64,000 bases of DNA from Fistulifera solaris (lineage: Eukaryota > Bacillariophyta > Bacillariophyceae > Naviculales > Stauroneidaceae). The notes under the pieces were generated by a model. That model had not been told where the DNA came from. It ran no database searches and saw only the letters and a program-made list of their open reading frames with translations. A program made the position numbers and the translations under genes. Below, one piece after another: positions 4,917 to 64,000 of this stretch. Each line of letters opens with the position of its first letter. Positions within the stretch are counted from its first letter, which is position 1. The DNA lies in the NCBI GenBank assembly GCA_030295235.1, contig AP026123.1, forward strand, positions 558,001-622,000, given 5' to 3'.

Positions 4917-5003
4917 AGCTACAAGTCTCCGAGTCCGGGTTAAATGCTATATCTGCAATGTGAAACTGTGAAATGATAACTTATAACGTTTATACAGTTT
5001 ACG

Positions 5004-5887
5004 TTACTCTTGAAAACATCTCTTTACGAACTTCAGTATCTCTTCGCCGACCTGCTCGGGTTGTTCTAACATGACGAGGTGACTCGCTGAATCGACCACT
5101 ACAAACGTAGCCATGGGGAGCTGGTCAGCAAGATGCTGTCCACATTCTAGTGGGAGAACTCCATCATCCTTCCCGTGAATAATGAGAGCAGGAACATTGC
5201 GAATTGATTGAATGTCGTCTACGGTTGCCCACTGCATGTTGCGATGATAGTTTTTGGCAAGAGCCATATCATTGCGGTTGCTGCCTTTCCGTACTTCCTC
5301 ACGAAGCTCCGTATGATCCGGATGGACTGACATTTTGACAAATTCGTCTGTCATGGTTCTTTGCAGGAATCGTAACATGAAAAGGGGTAGTTTCATGATG
5401 GGATGTCCGCCATCGGAGTGAGGCAAATGCGGATTGCGAATTGACGTGCCGATGAGGACGAGGCCCTCAAATTTGGCAGCGGATTGGTTCGGAGAGTATT
5501 CAGAACAATCGTTGGTCCGTATGAATGTCCAATTACGATGATGGGCACAGTCGAATCAGTAAACTTATCCAAAATTGCAGCAAAATCTTTCGCAAGTTCC
5601 TCATTGTGAAAGGCGGACGGTCGGGTATCTGCAGGACTAGGCGATTGACCGCAACCGACACAGTCGTAGAGAATAAACTTGACGCCTTTCAAGGATAAGT
5701 ACTCGCCGCAACGCTGCTTCAGAGTATTCAAAACCAGGCCATATTGCTGCTCCGTTGCCATCGTTCCGTGCTGAAAAACAAGCTGGAGTTCAACATTGTC
5801 TTCGGCGTTTTCTTGATATTCCTGCCTTACGAAAACGCTACGACCGGGCCGTATCTCCTGTATGCAAGCATCCGGTACATGGTGCAT
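5004..5887 (-). CDS. Alpha/beta-fold hydrolase
   Basis: A serine hydrolase of the alpha/beta superfamily, about 290 aa. The nucleophile elbow IGHSYG, the acid turn HGKDDGVLP and the catalytic histidine in SASHLVMLEQP lie in the expected order. An early FQHGT oxyanion-type turn and the DCVGCGQSP loop also fit. The ATG is at 5887. One frame change occurs around 5485-5510. Upstream codons read TLRTN, and after one restored base the frame gives the strand EGLVLIGTSIR and continues to the stop at 5004. The substrate cannot be told: lipase, esterase and epoxide-hydrolase-like members share these features. No signal peptide is obvious. The gene is convergent with COG4 (88-bp gap). Confidence 0.8.
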
Positions 5888-6048
5888 TGTCGTTTGAGCA
5901 GCGAAGTAATGGGCAACTTTTTTCCAAAAGATAGACTCTTACAAAAACAACGCACGCAACATGCGCAACGTGCAACCTTTTTCTCGTCCCCTTTGGTGCT
6001 TGTGCGACACGATCTGAAATTCTACATACGTATAATATAAACGCTTGG

Positions 6049-6107
6049 GACTATAAGCCCTTACTGTATCTTACGTTTTGCCGCGACTGCGTTTCAGTCA
6101 TGAATCA
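6049..6107 (+). repeat. Dispersed GACTG-TTTCAGTCATGA element, copy 1
   Basis: ACTATAAGCCC, then a spacer, then CCGCGACTGCGTTTCAGTCA followed by TGAATCA. It shares both halves with the copies at 6280, 23598, 23799, 53682 and 57609. The core is an imperfect palindrome (GACTG/CAGTC). Confidence 0.75.
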
Positions 6108-6279
6108 ATATCATTTCGAGTGAGTCAGATTGCTACCTAACCTCCGTTCATTCTGCAAGCATGTTCAAATAGATTTGTCGCTATCACAGTGCAATTGTTA
6201 CTAGCATTTACATCGTTCATTTTCATTCTCATTCTTAACGTTGAAAGACTAGGGGACCTTGGCCTTCGCAACACTACGC

Positions 6280-6332
6280 ATAGACCTAAAGTGTTCGTCG
6301 TTTTTGCCACGACTGCATTTCAGTCATGAGCT
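6280..6332 (+). repeat. Dispersed element, copy 2
   Basis: CATAGACCTAAAGTGTTCG followed by CCACGACTGCATTTCAGTCA and TGAG. This is the clearest match to the copy at 57609. Same orientation as all other copies. Confidence 0.8.
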
Positions 6333-6748
6333 ACACAATTCTTTATTCTTTCCTATGTTGTGTTGATTTTCTTTCCGCCCCACTATAAGCAATTGTTCAT
6401 AACATGCAAAGCCTTATGAGCGTGCCTTATGCCGGAATGAATGGGAAATGGGAAGTGAAATATTGCTGTTCCACGCTTGATCTAGCTTTATTAGTAAAAA
6501 AATGACCGTTCCTTATCCTTAATAATCAAAACCCTTCGAGTTAAAAGCCACGCTCGTCTATATGTCGAGGCGATGATGGCGATGAGCAAAAGAGCCGCCA
6601 TCTCCTTTTCATTTGAAAGTGATTGATGTCCTTTGAAACATGTCTAACTTATAATCAACATGGACGATTAGTTTTTCAAGTTTAAAGAGCCTTCTTCGTT
6701 CTCTCAAGCAATATCTATATCAGATACTCGCAACTTCTTTTTTATGAA

Positions 6749-8383: not shown

Positions 8384-9544
<1,161 letters not shown>

Positions 9545-12179: not shown

Positions 12180-15100
12180 TTACAAGAAAGCTTTATATTG
12201 CTTCACGTCCTCCTTGGTACTAAGCTTACCCGAGGCAACAGATTGGCCGTGGGTACCGGGCATCGGCATGTTTTGCGGAATGGAGACGAGACTGGAGCCA
12301 CTAGGTGGGACGTTTGTCAATCTCGTAGCAATAGTAGATGCACCGAGCGAACCCGCATAGGAATCGGAATCATTATATCCGCGGTACCCACTCGAAGGGC
12401 CACCCGTTTTTTCGAGTTCCATCTTCAGAAGAAGATGTAGTAGACTCTTCGTCGGAATCTTCATCGGAATTGCTTCCTTCCGAGTCAGAAGCGTCGCCTT
12501 CTTTGTCGGTCGCTGTCGTAACTGTACGCGTTTTGCCCCAAGAGAAATCATCCATATTGGCGAAAGCGTAAATAGGAAGAATGAAGTAGAACACGGGAAT
12601 ACCAGCGACACAAAGACAGCGAACCACCACAGATAATCCCATCGCGAGCGAACAAGGAATGAAAGCATCTGTAGTGAGAACGAAACTGCATAGAATATCA
12701 ACACAAACGTGTCGATAAGCTCGGGCTGGGTGATGAAAAGATATGCCAGGTAACCAATGTAGATCAATGAGGCTGGGAGAATCATCGTGACGATCAAGTC
12801 CATGACGACGACCATTTTCATGGAAAACATGCAGATACCACACATTGTTTGGACCTTTAGCAGCTCGTACATGTTATGAAACGTAGAATTGATCCAGCGA
12901 CGGCGCTGTGAAAGAAGAATCCACATCGTGTGTGGCACGATCGTCCAACACATCGCTTCGGGTACGAAACTCAGTCTCATTCCTGGAAAGTACTGCAAAA
13001 GCAGTGTTGTAAGCATTCGATCCTCTCCTAGCTCAAAAGATTCTTCTCGTGAAGTGAAGGGATATCGTTGCGTGCGTAATCCGTGTATACCAAATCATGT
13101 GCGATCAAGCATTTCATATCTTCTGTCATCACACGATACCTTCAAAGAAAAAATTAGTCACGAAACGCGAAAGATTTGTAGGGTGTGCCGAGTAAACTTA
13201 CATTGTAAAACAACCGGGTAAGCATGTCACGCAACCGAAAACAGATTCGAAAGCTTTCTTCAAGTGGTGACTGGAATAGTACTCGAACACTTGAATCATG
13301 GTGACCCAAGATTGCGCCTTGTTGTCTACTTGGGTCTCTCCACAGCAAGCCAGAATCTTTTTATCCTGCTCCATGCTGTACACCATGTGGGACATCGAAT
13401 CTACATGGACCCTGGTGTCGGCATCAATTGTCATCAGGTATTCGATGTCTTTCGCGGGCATGCCTAAACTGAAAAGAGCTTTCACGAGAGCCATGTCAAG
13501 CTCACTAGGTTCGCGGTTGTAATGAATGCGATTGAACATGCCAGCCAGAACCAGCTGCGAGTCACGCTTCCCTCGATTACCAGGACGACCGCTAGATTGC
13601 TCTTCTGGGCCGCCACGCTTTACAACCACAACATACTTCAGCGACAATTCAACTTCCTGGACTTCTTTTTCGTAAACTCCAGCGTAAACACTTGCATAGT
13701 TGTCACGTCGACGTCCAAGAGATCGATAATGATGGGTTTCGTCGTCTTCATTTATTTCGAAACCAAGAATACGAGCGCAGATCTCGGGCGTACTGTACTT
13801 TTCACCGCTTCCAGTAATAACACCGTCCGCGACCACGCACACCAATTTGTTCTCCTCGGGGTAAGTTGTGTGGATCACGGAATCAAGAGTCTTACGCAAC
13901 TCGCCATCACCTTCATTGTAGCAAGGGACCATCACCATGACCGCCGCTTGCAAATCGTCCTCCGCAAAGCTTCGGTGAGATCTGCGGAACAAAAAAAGAC
14001 CAGAGAATGAGAAGAAAGACGCGATTTTTTCTCCGAGAACGACAACTCAAGCTGGATCTTACCTGCATAAGTAAACAAAGGAGCACAAAACCTGCGAGTC
14101 AAAAAGATCAAGACGGGAACGTGTCAGTCGCGATTATGGCGTGAGAAAAGCTATGTCCCACAAACGCATTTTTCTTCTCACCTGCACCGCAAGGAATCCT
14201 GTGATGAAGAATAGGAAGAAGTACCTGATAGAGGGGAAAAGAAAGAAGGCGAACGTTAGATGGTGGAAGAATGAGTCATATTTTTGTCGGCTTGGCTCAA
14301 TTGGGCCGTGCCAAGACTCTCCGAAGAGAATCCGGCACCATAGACCCGTCTAGACGCTTCTTGAATTCACATGCAGTTGGACTTACATTAATACACCAAT
14401 GGAATTGCACGCCGGATCGTAGCGGTCGTCCACAACTGCCTCGAAGAAGAGCTGATCCAAACAGCTGGGTGGAAAGGGGTTAGATTGGCGTTCATGTCGT
14501 GACAACGTCATCTGTCCGAGACTTACTATAAGTAATCGTCCGTGTCAAAGAGATCATAATAGATCGCAGTAGCGTCCCTGTTCAACTGGATCATGATCAG
14601 CTGGTGTAAATCCGCATAAAGATAAGCGTTGGGGTGATCGAGGCTCTCCGAGATGGTGTTCGTCTTGTTGTCCCAAAGATCGCTAACGTACTGCGTCACA
14701 TTGTAAATCGTATTCTTGATTCGAATGTATTGCATCCCATTTTGACCAAGCTCCCATTGTGGAATGACCAATTGTCCGGCCACGTCGTCTTTGAACTGTG
14801 CTTTGACGGCGTCGATGCCGACGATCTGATCGTGACAAGGAATTCCGGTAAGCAAATCGAGTTCCGTCAACTGCGTGCAGGTAGATGTATCATGCGTGGC
14901 CAAATACTCGTTCTTGGTCGTATTCAAGCAGAACGCGGGAAGTCGAGCCGGTGCTACACGGGGAAACAGGCGACTAGCGTCATTTCCCAGAAACTGGAGA
15001 ATTCCATCCTTACCACCGGGGTGGCGATCAACGTAGCCAGCCATGTCATAGATAGTTCCAAAAATTGTGATCCAAGCTTCTCCTTGTTGCTTCCAAATCT

Positions 15101-16057
15101 CCGACTGAGTGTACTTGTAACTTTCTTTGCAGAAATAGAGGGGTAAAAAGCCGATTCCTCCTACGGTGATGGCCGACATTAAAATCGCAATCATGCAAAT
15201 GGTCACTTTCTCACTGCGAGAATAAAATGAACATGTTAGTAACTGATGCCGCAAAACAGGTAGCAAACAAGACGAATGCCGCAAGCAACAAAAGTCGAAT
15301 TCAAAGACAAGGACCAGAATTGACAAGAAACGTACCGCCACGCTTGTTTCGGACCAGCACCCTCTTTCGGAACACAAGCATCCGGTATCAAGAAAGTACA
15401 GATAAAAGCAAGCGATCGCCAAGCCTGCGATCCAGGAGGACTTTCGGGACGCTTGTAATCTTGCAAAGGCGGCTCAAATCCGTTTTTGGCCCGCTTTGAA
15501 TTTTTGGAGGCCGCCGAACGCGCACTTCTCGCACTGCGAATACTGTGCACCGATTTCGAGCTGGTACTGCGTCCACTGCGATTCGATCGATTGCTTCGTA
15601 CACTGCGATCTTCGTGACTACCGACCGAAGTGTCGTCGGCGGCAGCTTCGCCGGGTGCGACCGACAATCCGTGTCGATACTCGTCGTACAATGCAGCATC
15701 GCCATCGCGAGGAGGTCCAGCGTATCCGTCATAGGGAATGGGCATTTCCTCGGGGTAGCGAGGAGGCGGGTAATTTCCATGAGGATATGCGCCAGGAGGA
15801 ATGTATCCGCTACCCAGACTACGTTCGTCGCGATAGCCTTGACTGTAGGCCGTCGAGTTGCCCCCATAAGAAGTTCCTGCATACGAAGTGCCCCCGTAGG
15901 ATGTTCCTGTAAACGACCCCGAGTAAGAGGCAGATCCTTGCAGCTGCTGTTTCAACATCATCACCTGTTCCGCCAGTTCCGCTTTCTCTCGAGCTAAACG
16001 TTCCGCTTCTTCGGGAGTGTAATGGCCGTTGTGGCCCATTCCGTTCTCCGGCATCAT
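12180..16057 (-). CDS. Chitin synthase with cytochrome-b5-like domain, paralogue 1
   Basis: A GT2-family membrane chitin synthase of about 1,100 residues that would polymerise UDP-GlcNAc. Seven exons are supported by GT-AG junctions: 16057-15336, 15213-14527, 14464-14387, 14224-14182, 14091-14063, 13981-13202 and 13139-12180. The N terminus is low-complexity (Gly/Tyr/Pro, then Ser/Arg repeats). A membrane segment (MIAILMSAITVGGIGFLPLYF) leads into a cytochrome-b5-like heme fold (WITIFGTIYDMAGYVDRHPGG). The catalytic part has ADGVITGSGE, MTIDADTRV, EYYSSHHLKKAFESVFGC, GEDRMLTT and QRRRW, followed by C-terminal membrane helices and WGKTRTV. Frame breaks sit at the runs 13035-13038 and 12612-12614 (one base missing each) and at 12407-12412 (one extra). 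Correcting them gives exactly 1,100 codons. It faces its paralogue across 16058-17074. Confidence 0.88.
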
Positions 16058-17074
16058 TGTGGATTCTTCAAATTGTGTCTGCCGCAGACGACTTTAGAAA
16101 AAGGCAAGATTCTCTTTGTGTTCTTGACAATCAAAAGAACGTTGTTGATGAAGTCCTTTTCGTCGACAGAAACAAATAAAAAATAATTGAGGTGCAGCTT
16201 GACCCGTCTCCACCGCAATGCTGTGTTTAGGTTTTAGAGTCTTTCGAGAAATTTTTAGTACCGTATCCAATTCGCGACTCTGCACTGGCTGTATGTATAG
16301 TTCACGTTCTATAGACCCCTAAGTGAAAAAGAACACAAGATAGTTTGTTGGACCGGGCTTAAGATGGCCGTGCCTGACAGCTACACTAAAAGCTATAGTT
16401 TCAATCCCTAATGCCAATTGTTTATTGGTTTTGATTGGCTTATCTACGCCAACTAAGCACAGTTCGATGTGCCCTTTGCCAACGAATAATCGAATCACGT
16501 TTCTGAGTTGACATTTAGACAAAGAGCGAAACGTAAAACGCGCCAAGAGCCAGCAAGGATTCTTTCGCCCTTTTTATTTTTTACCGCACAGCGCACAGCT
16601 CATTTTTTCGTTCACTTGTATGTGAAACGTATTCGCTGAACCGGTGCGATGAAAAATATCCATTAACACGGATTACGGTATCGGTCATTGACTATTGCCC
16701 CTGTCGTAGTGTGAAACTCCCATTTTACACCCATCGAATTTATGCAGTAGTGCGGTCCCGGTTCCACCCGTGCCGGTACTCAGGAAAAGCTTGTGAGTAC
16801 AGTACGACCTATTGTAATAAATCTCACTCCGTTTATGGTTCCGCGTCCTTTTGACCCTCTTGTTTTCAAAAGTCAAAAGCGCTTGGGCCGCCAGCATCTT
16901 GTCGGCCAAGAAAACGGAGGCCAACAAATCCATTGCCGTGAAAGTGTGTCTTGACGATTCACTAATCCCTTTTGACTTGCAATTTAACAAAGAGACTCTT
17001 CTCTCACTGAATCTATTTGAATACTCATTTGATTAGTAAAGAGCGAGCCGCAGAGACTCTTTGATTACGAGAAA
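16058..17074. promoter_or_regulatory. Shared region between divergent chitin synthases
   Basis: These 1,017 bp separate the two start codons and must hold both promoters, or one bidirectional promoter. No coding frame is convincing. No long repeat between the two halves was obvious by eye, so any inverted duplication seems limited to the coding parts. Confidence 0.6.
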
Positions 17075-20000
17075 ATGGACACTTCGACAATCTCTTCCAC
17101 CAAGTCGGAAAAGTCGTCCTCGCACGCCTTGTCCGTGTTGGCGAAAATGATGCATGAACAAACCGAATTGGTGAATGCCATGGCGGCAGCCGCAAATCGC
17201 CCCGCACGAACTCCGGAAGAAGCCGCGCGGATCGCTCAAGAAAAAGAAGAACTCGCGCAGCGTGTCTTGTACTTGCAAGGGCAAATGGCGGCCGCGACCG
17301 AAGATGCGAGTCGCATGAGTGCCGGCGGATCGACGTTTGCGGGGGGATCTATATTACCGCCGGGATCGACGTTTACGGCGGGAAATTCGACGTATGTTGA
17401 TTCGCAAGGGGGTCGACATTCCCGGGGAGCTATGTCGACGGAAACATCCCTCCGGGGCCGTATGCGGGTCATCCGGGCTTTGCCAACGGTCCACCGGTTT
17501 ATCCAGGAGGTTATCCTCCTCATCAATTCCATGGACCAGGTCCAATTTATCCGGGGGCTATCCGGTTGGCGCAGCCTATCCTCCTAGTGTGGGTTATTCG
17601 CAGGATGGCTATTCGCAGGGTTACTCCCACGACGGTCGTTCACAAGGTTACTCGCACGATGGCCATTCATATCATTCACAGGGGTATCCACACGCCCCGT
17701 ATCCCCCGGGTGGATACGATCTACCTCCAGGGCCGCCGCCTTACAATGGGCACATGGTACCGCCCGGTCCTTACCCCATGGACCCTCACGAACGAAGTCA
17801 AGGATACGGTGGGGCTCCCTACATCAGCGGAGGTTCCTCGGTGCACAGCGGCATGGGACGCAGTGTTCGAAGCAGTCACAGTGTTCGTAGTAGTCATAGC
17901 GTCCGCAGCAGTCACAGTCGCTCAAGTCGCAGCCGCGGAGCGCATCAACCCTATGATGTCGAAGTCACGTACGGTGCCGGACCCCGGGTTCCGATTGTCG
18001 TTTCGGCCGATTTCAACGGCCCGCCCATGGGTCGTTCCGATGATGAGTATTCGATGGGCAGTCAAAGCTACCATAGTAACAGAAGCGGACGGTCGAATCG
18101 TAGTGGCCGCAGCAACAAGAGTAGTCGCAGCACTGGCGTCTCTATCAGCAGTGGTCGCAGTTCGCGCAGTGGAAAGAGTTCCAAGAAGAAAAAGAAAAAC
18201 CATGGCTTTGAACCTCCCATTGAAGAGTTTGTTCGAGAAGAGAATCCACCGGGTTCGCGTACTTGGAAAAACATTTCTCGAGCTTGCACGTTTCTGGTGC
18301 CCGATGCGTGTGTCCCGAAAGAAGGAGCTGGTCCGAAGCAGGCGTGGCGGTAAGTGATACATGCAACAAATTTTGACAGAAAAGAGTTGTCCAAGATCGA
18401 TTCTAACGTTTCCATTTGCAATTGTAGTGAGAAAATTACCATTTGCTTGATTGCCATCTTCTTTTCTTTGCTCATCGTTGGTGGTATTGGTTTTCTGCCC
18501 ATCTTTTTCTGCCGATCATCGACCAGATTTACTGCAGAGGAAGCCAAGGAGGAGAATCTGATTGGGTTACCGTGTACGGTAACCTCTATAATTTGGGTGC
18601 CTATGAAAGTCAACACCCGGGTGGTGCTGACACGATTCGCGCGTATCGCGGCGAAGACGCGAGCAACCGTTTCCCCGACTTCCGATGGGTTGGATGCCAG
18701 AGTATTGCATGAACTCGAACAAGACAGATTACATCAAGTCCAATTTCATTACTCCCGAATGCGATCTGTCGGCCAAAGAAGAGGAAGGAAATCCTTTCTG
18801 TCACGTCAGCACGGTTGGTCTGGATAGTATTCGAAACCTTTTGAGTGATTACCGGGAAGGTGTGGTAGTTGTTCCTCAGTGGGATCTTGGAAAAGAACAG
18901 CAACAATGGATTCGCATCGACAAGAACATCTACAACGTTACCCAGTACGTGGATTCGTTGCGAGATCCTGCTACAAGGAGAATCAACACCAGCCCCTCGC
19001 ATCCCAACGCACTACTGAACGAAAATCTCCATCTCGTGTTGGTCAATAAGTTGAACCAAGACGCTACGTCGGTGTTTTATGATGTTTTCCAAGACGATGC
19101 TCAGGCGTACATGGAGTAAGTGAACTGCTAGCAGTGCCGACTAACATGATGACGTCGCAATCTCACACAGCTATCCGCAGATGCTTCGACGAGCTTTTTC
19201 TACGAGGCCAGGCTGGACGATCGGTATGATCCAGCCTGCCGAAGCATCGGTGTATTCATGTACTTCTTTCTCTTCTTCATCGCTGGTCTGCTTTTTGTGC
19301 AGGTTGGCTGCTCCCTTGTCTATCTGGCTCGAAAGCATCGAATCTTCCACGAAGATGATCTCCAGGCTGCTGTTATGGTGATGGTGCCTTGCTACAACGA
19401 AGGCAACACTGAGCTAGAGAAGACGTGCAACAGTGTTCTGAGAACCAGCTACCCCGTGGAGAACAAGGTGATGTGTATTGTGGCAGATGGTGTCATTACT
19501 GGCTCAGGAGAAACATGTAGTACGCCAGAGACTTGCGCCAAGATTCTCGGATTTGAAATAGACTTTGAAAAGGACGATACTCATCATTACCGAAGTTTGG
19601 GAAAGAATCGAGACAACTTTGCCGGCGTCTACACTGGAACGTGGAAGAAGAAGGACGGCGACATCGAGCGCGAACTTAAGTACATTGTGATAGTAAAAGA
19701 GGCGGACCGGAAGAAAGAGGCTCGAGTCGCGCCGGTAACCGTGGTAAACGCGATTCTCAACTTGTTCTCACGGGCTTGTTCAATCGTATTCATTATAATC
19801 GAGAGCCTAGCGAACTCGATATTGCTTTGGTGAAGGCCTTGTTTAGTCTCGGACTACCTGCCAAGGACATTGAATACTTGATGACGATCGATGCTGATAC
19901 TAGGGTCCACGAGGAATCGATTTCTCACATGGTTTACCACCTGGAGCACGACAAGTTGGTACTAGCGTGTTGTGGTGAAACACAAGTAGATAACAAGGCT

Positions 20001-21166
20001 GCCTCTTGGGTAACAATGATCCAAGTTTTCGAATACTACTCAAGTCACCATTTAAAGAAAGCTTTCGAGTCCGTGTTCGGTTGTGTCACCTGCTTACCCG
20101 GTTGTTTCACAATGTAAGCTTTCGCGAAAGTGATTCACCAATGAAAGCACCTTTAAACCGTACTCACCATTTTTAACGACAGGTACCGTGTCTTTACAGA
20201 CGAGTTGAAATGCTTGATCTCTAACGATCAAGTGTACATTGATTACGCCCGCAATGACATCCCTTCGCTTCATGAAAAGAACTTATTCGAACTTGGTGAA
20301 GATCGAATGCTTACAACGCTTCTTCTTCAGCACTTCCCGGGCATGCGTCTAAGCTTCGTTCCGGAAGCCATGTGCTGGACCATTGTACCGCATACATTGA
20401 AGATTCTTCTGAGTCAACGTCGACGATGGATCAATTCGACTTTCCACAACATGTACGAATTGCTTAAAGTTGAGACGATGTGTGGAATTTGTTGCCTGTC
20501 CATGAAAACTGTCGTGGTCATGGATCTCATTGTCACAATGATTCTCCCAGCATCTCTTGCCTATGTTGTTTACTTGACCTATCTCTTCGTGACCGAACCT
20601 GAGTCGATTGACATGTTTATCATCATTTTCTATGGTATCACTTTTGGTATGCAGATGGTGTCGTTCCTAATCAGATCCAGGTGGGATTATCTTTGGTGGT
20701 TCTTTGTTTTCACTTTCGTGGGTATTCCGGTCTTCTACTTTCTACTTCCAATTTACGCCTTCACAAACATGGACGACTTTTCCTGGGGAAAAACTCGTAC
20801 TGTTGCTGGCGGAGATGAAGGAAAACAGAAGTCAGGGGGGATGGAAAATCTAAGAGATTTGACTCGAAAGCTGACTTGTTACCGGAAGAAGCGGTATCGA
20901 AACGGCAAGGAGGATCAGTGTCTGGTACATCGCAGTCAAAAAAGCTCAGCAGATCAACGCGTGATTCGCAAACTGGTTCTACTCGAGGACCAAAAGGGGA
21001 TGCATCTATTGCTTCTGGGACGAACTCCGCAGTTTCTGGGGGACCAAGTGGCGCACCTTCAGTAATATCTGGGCTAACAGGGTTCACCGACGGATCCGGA
21101 TTCGTTGGATCTTCATCGGTGAAAGAATCCAAAGAAAAGTTGCAAGAATGCAAAGTGGAGCTTTGA
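17075..21166 (+). CDS. Chitin synthase with cytochrome-b5-like domain, paralogue 2
   Basis: Same architecture as the gene at 12180-16057, in four exons: 17075-18349, 18428-19115, 19171-20113 and 20183-21166. Introns after AWR, in the DYP region and before YRVFTDE match the paralogue, whose three extra introns are absent here. The N terminus is longer and richer in Gly/Tyr/Pro/His (SQGYSHDGRSQGYSHDG) and Ser/Arg/His repeats. The b5-like domain reads WVTVYGNLYNLGAYESQHPGG. Catalytic motifs are ADGVITGSGE, MTIDADTRV, EYYSSHHLKKAFESVFGC, GEDRMLTT and QRRRW. Seven single-base losses break the frame: at G runs 17424-17427, 17553-17557 and 20835-20840, C run 18673-18676, A run 19695-19698, and near 18545 and 19178. 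Restoring seven bases gives exactly 1,299 codons. It is either a real gene with sequence errors or a decaying copy; I favour the former. Confidence 0.82.
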
Positions 21167-34119: not shown

Positions 34120-34790
34120 CATCGTCAGTTAATCTGGACCAGTTGTATTTCACGTTCCCAGGAAATCTGGGAGACTGGTATTTACACTTACACGAGGTCC
34201 AGAAAATCTGGACCAGTTGTGTTTTAACGTTCTCAGAAAATCTGGGGGTTTGGTCTTTACGTGGTCAGAAAATCAGGAAAGGACGTTAAAATTCTGCCTC
34301 TCAGTACAAGTTTCTACTTAGAGCCTACGGCGAGGCAGAATTTTAACGTCCTTTCCTGATTTTCTGACCAGTTGTATTTTCGAAATCCCAGAAAATTTGG
34401 GGGTGGTGTTTACACGTGGTCCAGAAAATCTGGACCAGTTGTATTTAGACGTTCCCAGAAATTCTGGATGTTTGTCTTGTTTACACGTGGTCCAGAAAAT
34501 CTGGACCAGTTGTATTTTCACTTTCCCAGGAAATCCGGAGGTGTGTTTTTCACTTTCCCAGGAAATCCGGAGGTGTGTTGTTTACACGTTGTCCAGAAAA
34601 TCTGGACCAGTTGTAATTTTACGTTCCCGGGAAATCTGGATGACTGGTATTTACACAATGGTCCAGAAAATCTGGACCAGTTGTAATTTTACGTTCCCAG
34701 GAAATCTGGATGACTGGTATTTACACAATGGTCCAGAAAATCTGGACCAGTTGTAATTTTACGTTCCCAGGAAATCTGGATTCAGCCTGC
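34120..34790 (+). repeat. Tandem array C, alternating CCAGAAA-TCTGG palindromes
   Basis: Two short elements alternate with a combined period of about 72-74 bp at the right end. One is the palindrome GGTCCAGAAAATCTGGACCA followed by GTTGTA. The other is GTTCCCAGGAAATCTGGATG followed by ACTGGTATTTACAC. At least seven copies of the first are present, and the last three units are nearly identical. Open frames at 34372 and 34397 are by-products. An inverted repeat (34262-34370) interrupts the array. Related in sequence to array D. Confidence 0.9.
34262..34370. repeat. Perfect 39-bp inverted repeat with 31-nt loop
   Basis: Arms 34262-34300 and 34332-34370 are exact reverse complements (TGGTCAGAAAATCAGGAAAG at the outer left end, GGCAGAATTTTAACG in the inner right). 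The loop is 34301-34331. The flanks belong to array C, and the repeat units on either side are not inverted relative to each other. Confidence 0.95.
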
Positions 34791-39018: not shown

Positions 39019-39375
39019 TTGAATGAATCATCATCGGTGTTTGCAATCATGCAGGAATTCTGTGCATTTCCAGAAATTCCGGAAATCGGTGATTGCAATC
39101 ATACAGGAATTCAGTGCCGTTCCAGAAATTCTGGAATCGGTGTTTACAATCAAACAGGACTTCTGCCTTCCGGACAATCACGAATCGGTGATTGCGATCG
39201 TAGAAAAATTTTGTGTTTTTCCAGAAATTCTGGAATCGGTGTTTACAATCATACAGGAAAACTGTGTCGTTCCAGAAATTCAGGAAAAGGTGTTTGCAAT
39301 CATACAGGAATTTTGTGCCGTTCCAGAAAATCTGGAATCGCTGTTGCGATTATACAGAAATGCTGTGTCCTTGTG
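39019..39375 (+). repeat. Tandem array D, 51-bp units
   Basis: About seven units of ATCGGTGTTTGCAATCATACAGG, a variable centre and GTTCCAGAAATTCTGGA. The unit starts are about 51 bp apart from 39033. Because 51 is a multiple of three, two overlapping frames (39019-39438 and 39023-39391) stay open; both are judged non-coding. The CCAGAAATTCTGG palindrome and the TTTACAAT segment also occur in array C. Confidence 0.88.
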
Positions 39376-58136: not shown

Positions 58137-61100
58137 ATGCTGGCAACAGAACCGACTACGCAGAGATCACGGAAATTGAAATATTTACAGCAACAGGAAC
58201 GGCGGATTTCTGCACTTTTAGACATTAGTTACGTGACGAATCGCATCGTTGCCGCTTCACAACCCATTTCGGACGAAGAACCAACCTATCGAGATCTGGG
58301 ACGGTCTACTTGTGAAGGAGAATCATTCACACAAAGCGAACAACAAAGAGACGCCTCGGAACGTGATGCAGGCACGTATCAAGAATTAGAAGATTCTGTT
58401 TCATCTGCCCGGCAAGTTTCTTATTCGAATTTTGGTGAAATCGGCAAATCAGACTTTCAGAGTCCCAATGACAACGATGATACGTCCTTGAGCTTACAAT
58501 CTGACATCCGTTCTCGCAAAACTTTTAACTCGTCAGTCAGAAACGGAAACAATCAACGAAGAAACACCCCGCATTCGCTGGCTAAATTTCTGAATAAGAA
58601 ACACGGCGAGGGCAACTACCTCTTGTTTTCATTGTGCGATGATCAAGCGGATGACTCCACATTGTTTCACCTGCGCCGTCAAATTGTACAGCTGCCTTGG
58701 AAACTGTCAAGAGACAATGCTTCGGAGCTTCCAACAGTCCCTTTGTTGCTAAATATATGCTACGCCTTTCATGCATGGCTTAACATGGAGGACATTTCGA
58801 ACGGAAACGTAGGTCACTCGTCGCTCAAGCGACCTCAACACGTGGCCGTGATTTACTGTCCCAATGGAAAGACTCGAACAGCTATTGCCATCGCTTGCTA
58901 TCTAAAATTTACTGGTCAAGTCGACAAGACTGAAGATGGTTTCTTACTTTTCCTCGAAAAGCGATGTCCGGATAGTGAGCTTTCACCGGCTACAGTGGCC
59001 AAGGCTCTCCCCGCGTCCATACGTACCTTCTTTAGAAATTTTGATTCCACGATCGAGCTCAAGCGATATATGAATCAACAACCGCTGTTACTTCGGTCAA
59101 TAGTAATGCGTGGTCTTCCCGTTGAAGAGAAACCGTGTTTGAATATTTTCAACGCCCAAGGTGACCATGTGTATTCGAGTCATCCTGACTTATTTGGAGA
59201 TATATCCGTGACGAATCCTTATGCTCAGCAAGATCGGAGCCAATGGGAGGAAGAGGAAGGCTTCTTTCCGGTCAATCAGATCTTGGACGGAGACTTCTAT
59301 TTGCTGTGTCGATTTGGAGGACATTACGCAGGCGATCTCTCTGATCCATCAAAGATCATTTTTCGTTATGCAAACACAACGGGTTTTCTCGGGGCTGGTC
59401 CTATTGACTTAAGATGTGATAGAGTTGATCTGATGCGTCGATACGCGCACCTAATTGATTGCAAGGAATTCTTATTTACTATGTCGTTTGAGGCATCTTG
59501 GAATTGCTCTACTCAGCAAGAAGCTACTTTGCTGCAGAGAGATAGTATATCTGACAATGTTCCTTGCGTGCGAAGCGGATACCAGGCTATGGAACAAGGC
59601 TGGGAAATGATTTCACGTCATCATTCTGCAAAGCCTTCGAACATCGATGTCGACCTTTTACACGCTTCCTGTGAAAGTCTGCGTGAGTGTCCTTATCATC
59701 TATCGGCTTTGGCCTTGCAGCTTAGCAACTTTGATTTGAATGGCGCTGAAAACATGCTCGTAGAAGGAAAAATGCGTATCTGGTGGAGTCCTCGGATAGC
59801 GACAGAGACTCCATCTCACCAATATCAAACTAGTAGCCACGCGCAGCCCGCAATTCGGCGAGAACATCTCGAAATACGAAACAGCATTTTAAATGTGGTA
59901 AGAGGCGTTGGGTCACTATCGACGTCGCATGGAAATGGTTCATTTCAGACAAGGGCTACGAAGCAATCCACAGGGGATATTGAAGAAGGATTCACACCTC
60001 TAATATTGTCAGATGCAGCTTCATGGTATACATCCCCATTGATGCGACCCAAGTCGGGCGATATCACGAATGCAATCGGCAATAATAAATTCATTTACCC
60101 AAAACCGGACCATCCGTCACGCCGAAAAGATCAACCTCTCATTCCCCTTTTCCACACCCGTTACCCATAAAAGAAGGTTCAAGTAGCGTACTCGACGATC
60201 CCCACAATCGCAATGCTTTTGAGATGTTGATGCTTTCAAGCTCTCCTACAATTTCCATGCATGATTTCCTTGCATTGCAGCGTTATCTCAGGGGTGAAAG
60301 TGAGCGTCTTGATTCTGATTCAGCTCAAATCAACGGTGATAGCGCAGATATCATGCAAGGTCGTGAAGGAACCAACGACCTCAACATATTACCTAGCGAG
60401 CTCCAAAATGATGATGTAGTCGACGAGAAAGGGAACGCATATTATGACGAAAACACAGTTCACACGGATGCAGAAGATATTCACTCATCGGGTCCTCCCT
60501 TGAAAGACGATGAATGTTTTACGAAATATTACAAGATGCTGAAGATGGGACTGCCGCGAGGAGCCGTTGAAAATGCGATGACTCGGGATGGCGCCGACTT
60601 GTCGCTCCTTGACTTGGATCCCGAAAAGAGTCTCGCGTCTCAGAGACCGACACAGACTGTATCCTCGGCCTCGGACCCTCCCTTGAAAGACGATGAATGT
60701 TTTACAAAATATTACAAGATGCTGAAGATGGGACTGCCGCGAGGAGCCGTTGAAAATGCGATGACTCGGGATGGCGCCGACTTGTCGCTCCTTGACTTGG
60801 ATCCCGAAAAGAGTCTCGCGTCTCAGAGACCGACACAGACTGTATCCTCGGCCTCGGACCCTCCCTTGAAAGACGATGAATGTTTTACGAAATATTACAA
60901 GGTGCTGAAGATGGGACTGCCGCGAGGAGCCGTTGAAAATGCGATGACTCGGGATGGCGCCGACTTGTCGCTCCTTGACTTGGATCCCGAAAAGAGTCTC
61001 GCGTCTCAGAGACCGACACAGACTGTATCCTCGGCCTCGGACCCTCCCTTGAAAGACGATATATGTTTTACGAAATATTACAAGATGCTGAAGATGGGAC

Positions 61101-64000
61101 TGCCGCGAGGAGCCGTTGAAAATGCGATGACTCGGGATGGCGCCGACTTGTCGCTCCTTGACTTGGATCCCGAAAAGAGTCTCGCGTCTCAGAGACCGAC
61201 ACAGACTGTATCCTCGGCCTCGGACCCTCCCTTGAAAGACGATGAATGTTTTACAAAATATTACAAGATGCTGAAGATGGGACTGCCGCGAGGAGCCGTT
61301 GAAAATGCGATGACTCGGGATGGCGCCGACTTGTCGCTCCTTGACTTGGATCCCGAAAAGAGTCTCGCGTCTCAGAGACCGACACAGACTGTATCCTCGG
61401 CCTCGGACCCTCCCTTGAAAGACGATGAATGTTTTACGAAATATTACAAGATGCTGAAGATGGGACTGCCGCGAGGAGCCGTTGAAAATGCGATGACTCG
61501 GGATGGCGCCGACTTGTCGCTCCTTGACTTGGATCCCGAAAAGAGTCTCGCGTCTCAGAGACCGACACAGACTGTATCCTCGGCCTCGGACCCTCCCTTG
61601 AAAGACGATGAATGTTTTACAAAATATTACAAGATGCTGAAGATGGGACTGCCGCGAGGAGCCGTTGAAAATGCGATGACTCGGGATGGCGCCGACTTGT
61701 CGCTCCTTGACTTGGATCCCGAAAAGAGTCTCGCGTCTCAGAGACCGACACAGACTGTATCCTCGGCCTCGGACCCTCCCTTGAAAGACGATGAATGTTT
61801 TACGAAATATTACAAGATGCTGAAGATGGGACTGCCGCGAGGAGCCGTTGAAAATGCGATGACTCGGGATGGCGCCGACTTGTCGCTCCTTGACTTGGAT
61901 CCCGAAAAGAGTCTCGCGTCTCAGAGACCGACACAGACTGTATCCTCGGCCTCGGACCCTCCCTTGAAAGACGATGAATGTTTTACGAAATATTACAAGA
62001 TGCTGAAGATGGGACTGCCGCGAGGAGCCGTTGAAAATGCGATGACTCGGGATGGCGCCGACTTGTCGCTCCTTGACTTGGATCCCGAAAAGAGTCTCGC
62101 GTCTCAGAGACCGACACAGACTGTATCCTCGGCCTCGGACCCTCCCTTGAAAGACGATGAATGTTTTACAAAATATTACAAGATGCTGAAGATGGGACTG
62201 CCGCGAGGAGCCGTTGAAAATGCGATGACTCGGGATGGCGCCGACTTGTCGCTCCTTGACTTGGATCCCGAAAAGAGTCTCGCGTCTCAGAGACCGACAC
62301 AGACTGTATCCTCGGCCTCGGACCCTCCCTTGAAAGACGATGAATGTTTTACGAAATATTACAAGATGCTGAAGATGGGACTGCCGCGAGGAGCCGTTGA
62401 AAATGCGATGACTCGGGATGGCGCCGACTTGTCGCTCCTTGACTTGGATCCCGAAAAGAGTCTCGCGTCTCAGAGACCGACACAGACTGTATCCTCGGCC
62501 TCGGACCCTCCCTTGAAAGACGATGAATGTTTTACGAAATATTACAAGATGCTGAAGATGGGACTGCCGCGAGGAGCCGTTGAAAATGCGATGACTCGGG
62601 ATGGCGCCGACTTGTCGCTCCTTGACTTGGATCCCGAAAAGAGTCTCGCGTCTCAGAGACCGACACAGACTGTATCCTCGGCCTCGGACCCTCCCTTGAA
62701 AGACGATGAATGTTTTACGAAATATTACAAGATGCTGAAGATGGGACTGCCGCGAGGAGCCGTTGAAAATGCGATGACTCGGGATGGCGCCGACTTGTCG
62801 CTCCTTGACATGGACCCAGATAGAAGCCTCATCTCTCAACTAACAAGCATCTCGAACAAAGATGTTGGGGTTCAACAAGATATTTTAGACAAGGCCGAGT
62901 TTGTTCAGCTGAAAGCCCAGGACATGGCCTCTCAGAAAGGTTCTTCTTCTCGTCTTCCTGCAGAGCCACGACAGAACGCAGCGAAAAAGAATGTGAGACG
63001 AAAAAAGATATTTTGGAATCCAATAAATCCTGGGGAATTGAGAGAGGATTCTTTGTGGTCGCTGGTGAAAGGAAAAGTTCAGATGGATAGTTTAAAATAT
63101 GATGTTCGAGAATTCGAAGATCTTTTCACCGAGTCGCCTGATACAGCAAAAGCCAAAATGATCAAAACAGAAAAGAGGGTAGAAACGAAGAAAAGCGTCC
63201 AGGTTATTGATGGGAAACGATCCATGAACGGAGGCATTATTCTTAAGCGATTAAGGATTGAGTACAAGGCACTTGCTGAGATGGTCGAATCAATGTAAGT
63301 CAAGATGATGATGGATGCTGTCGTTGAAAAGAAATCTTTCTCATGGCAACCTTTACGCCTCAGGGAAATTGGAGCCCTAGACGCTACATCGATCAAAGCG
63401 CTGAAAGAGTACCTCCCGACTGTTGACGAAAGAAACCAGCTTCAATCCTACTTAAAAGCGGCTGGTGATTCCAAGGATATACGAGAAAAGCTCTACGGTG
63501 ATCTTAGTGACTGTGAGAAGTACATGATTTGCATGATGGATATAGCTAAAGCCGATGACCACTTTGATTGCATGTTATTCCGGGTGCAATTTCGATCCAG
63601 ATTCGACGAGCTTATTGATTGCCTTAGAACGGTAGACAAAGCTTGTGATGAAGTCAGGTCTTCTGAAAAGTTTCGACAAATTATGGCAATTATACTAACC
63701 GTGGTCAATCAGATCAATACGGGCGGCGAAGGAAAGGGTCAGGCTATGGGTTTTAATCTTGAAACACTGTTGAAACTTAACGAGGTACGTCTTTGTTGTC
63801 TTGTCATTGGGCATTTTTGCAAATCTCACTTTTCTACTCAAAACAGGCGAAGGCTTTCGATAAAAAGACAAGCGTTCTTCAATATCTCATCAAAGTGGTC
63901 AAACGAAACGACGAGTCGCTAATTGAATTTCACAAAGACCTTCCACATACCAACGACTCAGTTAACATCATCTTGGATTCTCTATGTTCAGATATCAAAG
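58137..64000 (+). CDS. PTEN-domain formin with 13 WASHC3-like repeats (3' end outside window)
   Basis: An actin-nucleating formin with an N-terminal PTEN-like module. The phosphatase-like loop is VIYCPNGKTRTAIAIACYLK, where CX5R is intact but the usual His before Cys is Tyr; a C2-like region follows (LLCRFGG, KIIFRYANTTG). Then come thirteen 61-residue repeats (60494-62830) and an FH2 domain (KKIFWNPINPG, SMNGGIILKRLRIEYKALAE, FRQIMAIILTVVNQINTGGE). One base is missing in the C run 60144-60147; restoring it joins the PTEN and formin frames. Introns are 63295-63363 (69 nt, phase-preserving, containing the apparent stop) and 63785-63847 (63 nt). More than 1,890 residues are visible. PTEN-C2 plus FH2 is the layout of plant class II formins; there is no proline-rich FH1 in the usual place. 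The window ends inside FH2. Confidence 0.9.
60494..62830 (+). repeat. Thirteen 183-bp coding repeats
   Basis: Exact 183-bp period, so unit starts fall at 60494, 60677 and so on to 62690. Each unit encodes PPLKDDECFTKYYKMLKMGL then PRGAVENAMTRDGADLSLLD and LDPEKSLASQRPTQTVSSAS. Copies differ at only a few bases: ACGAAAT versus ACAAAAT after TGTTTT, one KVLKMG (copy 3), one DDICF (copy 4). The last unit ends differently (LLDMDPDRSLISQL). The motif resembles the helical segment of WASHC3/CCDC53 (KYxKMxxxGxPxxAxxxKMxxxGxDPxLL). Confidence 0.97.

Follow-up and report, generated by a model that had tools for sequence, protein, structure and literature searches.

A PTEN-type formin of the diatom Fistulifera solaris with WASHC3/CCDC53-like modules in place of FH1, a possible FH1 substitute

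In formins elsewhere, fast actin growth depends on FH1 and profilin. In a formin gene of Fistulifera solaris, an array of thirteen modules occupies the position before FH2 in which FH1 would be expected. What are these modules, and may they do for FH2 what FH1 does elsewhere? The gene lies at the end of the stretch of DNA analysed here (the window; 64,000 nucleotides of contig AP026123.1). F. solaris is reported to be an allodiploid diatom (PMC13276009, PMC5935921), and the genes studied here were found to be paired on contigs 3/4, 21/22, 23/24, and 25/26 (hereafter C3, C4, and so on) of a genome of 51.7 Mb in 61 contigs. The window copy of the gene is on C3, and its homeolog is on C4. The following features were found in the window copy.

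58137..60170, plus strand: PTEN-like module with the signature YCPNGKTR; the frame breaks near 60145 in the window copy (phmmer, signature, and homeolog frame comparison)
60224..60493, plus strand: fast-evolving linker from the PTEN-like module to the array (89 codons; homeolog dN/dS 1.16)
60494..62818, plus strand: array of 13 CCDC53/WASHC3-type modules, each a 44-aa conserved core with a linker of about 17 aa, the 13th being core only (Tandem Repeats Finder, Pfam, copy-by-copy reading, and dN/dS)
62819..62974, plus strand: variable linker from the last module to FH2 (dN/dS 0.63 over 58 codons, the last of which already belong to the FH2 model match)
62975..63294, plus strand: first part of FH2, model positions 3-106 (PF02181, E 2.1e-9, frame residues 918-1023); the lasso tryptophan is residue 931, codon 63014-63016
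63295..63363, plus strand: inferred 69-bp GT-AG intron in FH2; its removal joins both FH2 frames without a stop, and in the homeolog the in-frame stop is also present and the intron has a counterpart that can be aligned
63364..63784, plus strand: second part of FH2, model positions 111-237 (PF02181, E 7.1e-27), ending at an inferred second intron

The initial annotation had described thirteen near-identical 61-residue units inside a formin, with a PTEN module on one side and FH2 on the other. Both the units and the layout were confirmed. By copy-by-copy reading, a 183-bp (61-aa) unit is repeated 13 times head-to-tail, and Tandem Repeats Finder reported a single array at 60494-62814 with a period of 183, 12.7 copies, 99% matches, and 0% indels. 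Relative to copy 1, copies 2-12 each have 0-2 changed bases out of 183, and an amino-acid change was seen in two copies (M to V in copy 3 and E to I in copy 4). Copy 13 follows the repeat exactly for its first 120 bases and then diverges from it, its core ending at 62818. The period is divisible by three, and the array lies within a single open frame (60224-63298) that reaches the start of FH2. An antisense ORF of 784 aa that overlies the array is regarded as a side effect of the repetition. Residues 142-280 of the upstream frame matched PTEN phosphatase structures in a phmmer search (E 1.2e-4; 9.8e-4 for the homeolog), while the Pfam PTEN_C2 model gave 0.078 for the window copy and 0.2 for the homeolog, both below the cut-off. 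Downstream, FH2 exceeds the Pfam cut-off in each of the two exons listed above, and it extends beyond the window with a continuation at G000 C3:621844-622053. After FH2, SASAIS[AE]FFAAKK motifs were seen (L049 8344-9033, with two in the L049 copy, and L050 7416-8060), and the C21/C22 formin has a similar TASAIADFWK motif after its FH2. These are possibly a shared tail motif of the formins.

PTEN-formins have been reported in diatoms, and those of stramenopiles are described as keeping the arginine and losing the histidine of HCxxGxxR (PMC2386819). The signature YCPNGKTR likewise keeps the C, G, and R of this motif and lacks the histidine. Thus, the window formin resembles the stramenopile PTEN-formins as described in 2008 (PMC2386819) and 2017 (PMC5628938) in having a PTEN-like part N-terminal to FH2 with C, G, and R kept and the histidine lost, although it is only in the homeolog that one frame joins the PTEN-like part to the array. 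In the window copy, the PTEN-like part (58137-60170) and the array (60224-63298) are in different frames, with a stop codon at 60170; this break was overlooked in the initial annotation. Taken at face value, this would make PTEN and array-FH2 two separate genes in the assembled window copy, or the copy a degenerating homeolog. I consider this unlikely. The homeolog on contig 4 reads through the PTEN-like part, the array, and the first FH2 residues in one frame of 1418 aa, and the two copies differ near 60145 by one base in the length of a homopolymer. The homeolog in turn has its own one-base homopolymer break just past the first FH2 residues (L049 near 6940), and Pfam lists no FH2 on the 1418-aa frame. 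Such single-base breaks, at a different site in each homeolog, suggest sequencing or assembly slips as the simplest explanation. In addition, the dN/dS values between the homeologs (0.20 for the PTEN part, and 0.11 and 0.08 for two FH2 exon parts) speak against two separate genes or a degenerating copy.

What is the module? The initial annotation had stated that the unit follows the pattern of WASHC3 and had proposed a profile search of one unit against the WASHC3/CCDC53 families as a check. One 61-aa unit alone matched the Pfam CCDC53 model (PF10152) significantly (E 6.7e-9, 36.8 bits with a cut-off of 24.6). The model matches the array frame as 13 stretches with a whole-protein E of 4.2e-129, but this value is inflated by the repetition, and the single-unit value is the fair figure. 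One unit covers model positions 110-147 of 147, the best stretch covers positions 93-147, and the earliest model start among the 45 listed matches in the genome is at position 63 of 147 or later. Thus, the family resemblance stands as a C-terminal motif of WASHC3/CCDC53, while the N-terminal part of the full-length family model is unmatched. A unit that matches in this motif alone is not a WASHC3 protein.

The structure of one module was predicted by AlphaFold2 without an alignment. The model has helices at residues 4-16 and 21-30 with a short loop between them, followed by a short third element, and its mean pLDDT is 77 with ten-residue means of up to 90. A prediction for two modules has bead-like modules whose connecting linker has a pLDDT below 50. 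No confident structural match to the module was found among solved structures, and a PDB sequence search with one unit gave no relatives at E up to 10. With a 15-row profile, the PDB search gave one match, C6HR1_4r, which is not significant (E 0.55). Alignment A1 consists of 15 motif copies chosen by eye (one from C3, one from C4, two from the C25/C26 pair, five from C21/C22, and six from C23); near-identical C3/C4 copies, homeolog duplicates, all C24 copies, the frame-broken C23 copy, and the degenerate C21 copy were left out of it.

Other identities were considered for the module. In the unit (searched at E up to 10) and the array frame, Pfam showed no WH2 or other actin-binding family apart from FH2, and a WH2 search of the genome gave one candidate, located elsewhere, with E 2.37. 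A WH2 reading, which came from a rough likeness in spacing, was dropped, as Pfam gives it no support. A UBA-like reading, from an MGxP motif, has no confident structural support; UBA was a weak row in some structure searches and absent from the rows shown in others. The names Brz zinc ribbon, EBNA2_N, SecE, and prephenate dehydrogenase also appeared on the arrays; in the long frames, none of them has a stretch that is significant by itself, and I attribute them to the repetition. A two-unit query gave E 0.0026 and 18.8 bits for the Brz zinc ribbon, below its cut-off of 27.9. Among prokaryotic genome contigs, 118 and 23 pattern matches to the module were found and none was confirmed as a relative, and the same holds for 33 and 31 pattern matches among viral contigs.

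Is the combination of module and FH2 common in this genome? An FH2 search of the genome gave at least nine matches, which correspond to six genes in three homeolog pairs, and a CCDC53 search at E up to 1 gave at least 45 listed matches; both counts are lower bounds, as only the best candidates were scored. The listed CCDC53 matches are distributed over C3 (13), C4 (9), C25 (2), C26 (2), C21 (3), C22 (4), C23 (6), C24 (5), and a broken copy (1), so that 33 of the 45 lie in the six FH2 genes, 11 in the C23/C24 pair, and one in the broken copy. In all six FH2 genes found, the modules precede FH2. The lasso tryptophan follows the last module at a distance of 65 residues in the C3/C4 pair, 26 in the C25/C26 pair, and 28 in the C21/C22 pair. 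The module numbers in the formins form a series of 2, 3-4 by the model (about 5 by eye), 9, and 13.

No proline-rich FH1 was seen before FH2 in these genes. None of the 13 ORF pieces around the modules and FH2 has three consecutive prolines, and the maximum is 8 prolines per 40 residues, in agreement with the earlier claim that the array lies where a proline-rich FH1 would be expected. Seventeen further N-terminal, FH2, and tail pieces have a single PPP, in the upstream ORF of the C22 gene.

The C23/C24 pair (L055 and L056; G000 C23:784.7-786.2 kb and C24:759.9-761.5 kb) encodes a protein with 6 and 5 modules, respectively, by the model and no detected FH2. Thus, with 11 matches in this protein, the module is not tied to FH2. 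The protein has seven EVYIRPDGKK-type repeats on the N-terminal side (counted in the C24 copy) and GRGGLLAAIQGRG repeats at the C-terminus. The latter are reminiscent of half a WH2 motif, a likeness for which Pfam gives no support. On the minus strand at L057 ~4955-6671 (G000 C4 near 204 kb) lies another copy of the PTEN-formin, which is partial and broken and has one or two modules in degenerate form. Near it, a repeated element beginning with ADVNKRSQTPMYP lies at L057 3200-3604 and recurs at L049 9534-9899.

Substitutions between homeologs were counted in one unit per array (copy 2 of C3 and copy 2 of C4) and in pieces whose frames are readable in both homeologs; the C23/C24 pair and the remaining C21/C22 modules are outside these counts. 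The 44-codon core has 16 synonymous and 1 nonsynonymous changes between C3 and C4 (dN/dS 0.011), while the 15-codon linker within the unit has 2.8 and 6.2 (dN/dS 0.82). For the stretches on either side of the array, the counts are 12.8 and 50.2 (before) and 13.5 and 32.5 (after), with the dN/dS values listed above. Fisher p values from rounded counts are 0.002 for the core versus the linker, 6e-6 versus the stretch after the array, 3e-8 versus the stretch before it, and 0.058 versus FH2, and they are indicative only, as homogenisation makes the changes less independent. The core ratio is lowered by its dS of 0.90, compared with 0.25-0.46 elsewhere in the gene, but its dN of 0.010 is also the lowest among the gene parts compared. 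In the other two formin pairs, four unrepeated modules have dN/dS of 0-0.035. In the C25/C26 formin, the values are 0.01 for FH2 and 0.14 for a disordered stretch that precedes the modules; since this stretch is also constrained, the contrast between core and spacer is weaker there. In the window gene, selection is strong on the module core and slight on the spacers.

The arrays of the two homeologs differ in size. The window copy (C3) has 13 copies with a period of 183 bp, and the homeolog (C4) has 9 copies with a period of 177 bp (59 aa). Within-array divergence is 0.54% in C3 (copies 1-12) and 0.14% in C4 (copies 1-8), while the same copies have fixed differences between the arrays at 19 of 171 positions. 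Thus, of the earlier claim that the array was recently expanded or homogenised, the homogenisation is borne out by the differences within and between arrays. In each array, the last copy shares its 117-nt core exactly with the first copy, whereas the cores of the two last copies differ from each other at 15 sites, which indicates that homogenisation reaches the array edge in both. Since the separation of the two lineages, the arrays have also changed in copy number and period.

How does this gene compare with known systems? Canonical FH1 has many short sites on flexible linkers in variable number. The array is like canonical FH1 in preceding FH2 and in these three respects. It is unlike FH1 in that it is not proline-rich, its modules are predicted to be helical rather than polyproline tracts, and no profilin was found. 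Like WASHC3/CCDC53, the window unit has the C-terminal motif of PF10152; unlike it, the modules lack the N-terminal part, are in tandem, and are fused to FH2, and no WASH or strumpellin was found in the genome. The stramenopile PTEN-formins are described as PTEN-FH1-FH2 or PTP-C2-FH1-FH2, with CCDC53-type repeats unmentioned in the available text of the two reports cited above, whereas the window formin has no visible FH1. In the lack of FH1, it resembles Dictyostelium ForC as described (PMC2386819), for which CCDC53 modules are unmentioned in the available text.

The partners of FH1 and of WASHC3 were searched for in the genome. No match to the profilin model was found in a six-frame search without introns, in which an empty answer is no proof of absence, while the cofilin model, of similar size, was found with E 2e-36. 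The WASH (PF11945) and strumpellin (PF10266) models likewise gave no match, with the same reservation. The ARPC4 model gave one match on contig 7 at 18.7 bits (cut-off 22.2, E 0.03), and none of the ORFs read by eye there is ARPC4-like; a split or diverged ARPC4 may lie at this site. According to the available text of published papers, many diatoms have no profilins and no Arp2/3 (PMC11420354), and ARP2/3 and WASP-family proteins are absent in Bacillariophyta (PMC3298513). Because WASH and strumpellin gave no match and ARP2/3 and the WASP family are reported absent (PMC3298513), a role in a WASH complex is unlikely. In this genome, it seems that the WASH complex was lost and the module was kept.

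It is plausible from the sequences that the array has replaced FH1. On this reading, each module would bind a partner, and the array would do for FH2 what FH1 does elsewhere. It may capture actin monomers, directly or via a carrier other than profilin, and hand them to the FH2 ring; alternatively, with its many binding sites on flexible linkers, it may hold the filament end. The PTEN-like part probably anchors the protein to a membrane, as the available text on plant class II formins proposes for theirs. The number of polyproline tracts in FH1 is thought to tune the capture rate, and the length of the array would do so here. I favour an FH1 substitute since the module seems to have outlasted the WASH complex, is under strong selection, and occupies the position of FH1, and since there is seemingly no profilin to bind an FH1. 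Against this, the stramenopile PTEN-formins are described with FH1 (PMC2386819, PMC5628938), so that its loss may not be general, and FH1-less formins exist elsewhere (ForC, PMC2386819), so that a substitute may not be needed. Altogether, I put about equal weight for and against the view that the gene is a PTEN-type stramenopile formin without a proline-rich FH1, with WASHC3/CCDC53-like helical modules in its place that probably substitute for it. A bolder version is possible but doubtful: the CCDC53-type module would be an unrecognised binder of actin monomers or of a monomer carrier that replaced FH1 in every formin after the loss of profilin, ARP2/3, and the WASP family, making elongation independent of profilin and its strength dependent on copy number.

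The main rival is that the modules serve for docking or regulation and have no part in monomer delivery; they would bind an adaptor, a cargo, or the formin itself (for clustering or autoinhibition), and the array would provide avidity at a site on a membrane, for instance at the raphe or the silica deposition vesicle. This is a serious possibility, though I do not prefer it. The best argument for it is the C23/C24 protein, in which the modules occur without a detected FH2 and so can act away from it. Also, the motif to which the modules are related belongs to a complex subunit, the PTEN-like region suggests membrane targeting, and a formin-like gene is reported to be upregulated upon silicon replenishment in another diatom (PMC11151724). 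The constant place of the modules a short way ahead of FH2 in each of the six formins found, together with the lack of FH1, is more in keeping with a role coupled to FH2 than with free docking.

Near-identical units, copy number and period that differ between the homeologs, and homogenisation up to the array edge are also what a neutral coding minisatellite would leave, expanding by unequal crossing over and serving at most as a spacer. This seems improbable to me, because the core is constrained (dN/dS 0.011) and its own linker is not (0.82). Homogenisation makes this pattern less independent than it looks, but the four modules of the other two formin pairs, which are not homogenised, are constrained as well. 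Still further from what I would expect is a remnant WASHC3 that assembles a WASH-like complex on the formin. The PF10152 match is significant, but none of the 45 listed matches starts before model position 63 of 147, the WASH and strumpellin models are without a match, and the WASP family is reported absent in diatoms (PMC3298513).

If the array is an FH1 substitute, an ancient motif of WASHC3 would be separated from the WASH complex, which would point to a broader function of this motif in actin assembly. In one genome, all the formins found have a non-FH1 module in the FH1 position, under strong selection and in a natural series of copy numbers, and thus offer a purifiable candidate. They raise the testable question of how actin grows in such cells without profilin. 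Diatom PTEN-formins and the CCDC53 family are already known. No report of a CCDC53-type array in the FH1 position of formins was found in the open-licence literature, where PF10152 was met in the domain table of an oomycete genome and nowhere else; domain databases may already list the combination of CCDC53 and FH2.

Elsewhere in the window, a polyubiquitin gene (named by eye) at 8630-9534 has four near-identical 228-bp units and is another homogenised coding array. Tandem repeats outside the formin gene lie at 22-1849 (period 225/457 bp), 34366-34781 (34/70), and 39033-39367 (51/99). At 12180-21065, two genes in opposite orientation have near-matching ORFs that, read by eye, look like membrane glycosyltransferases of the chitin-synthase type.
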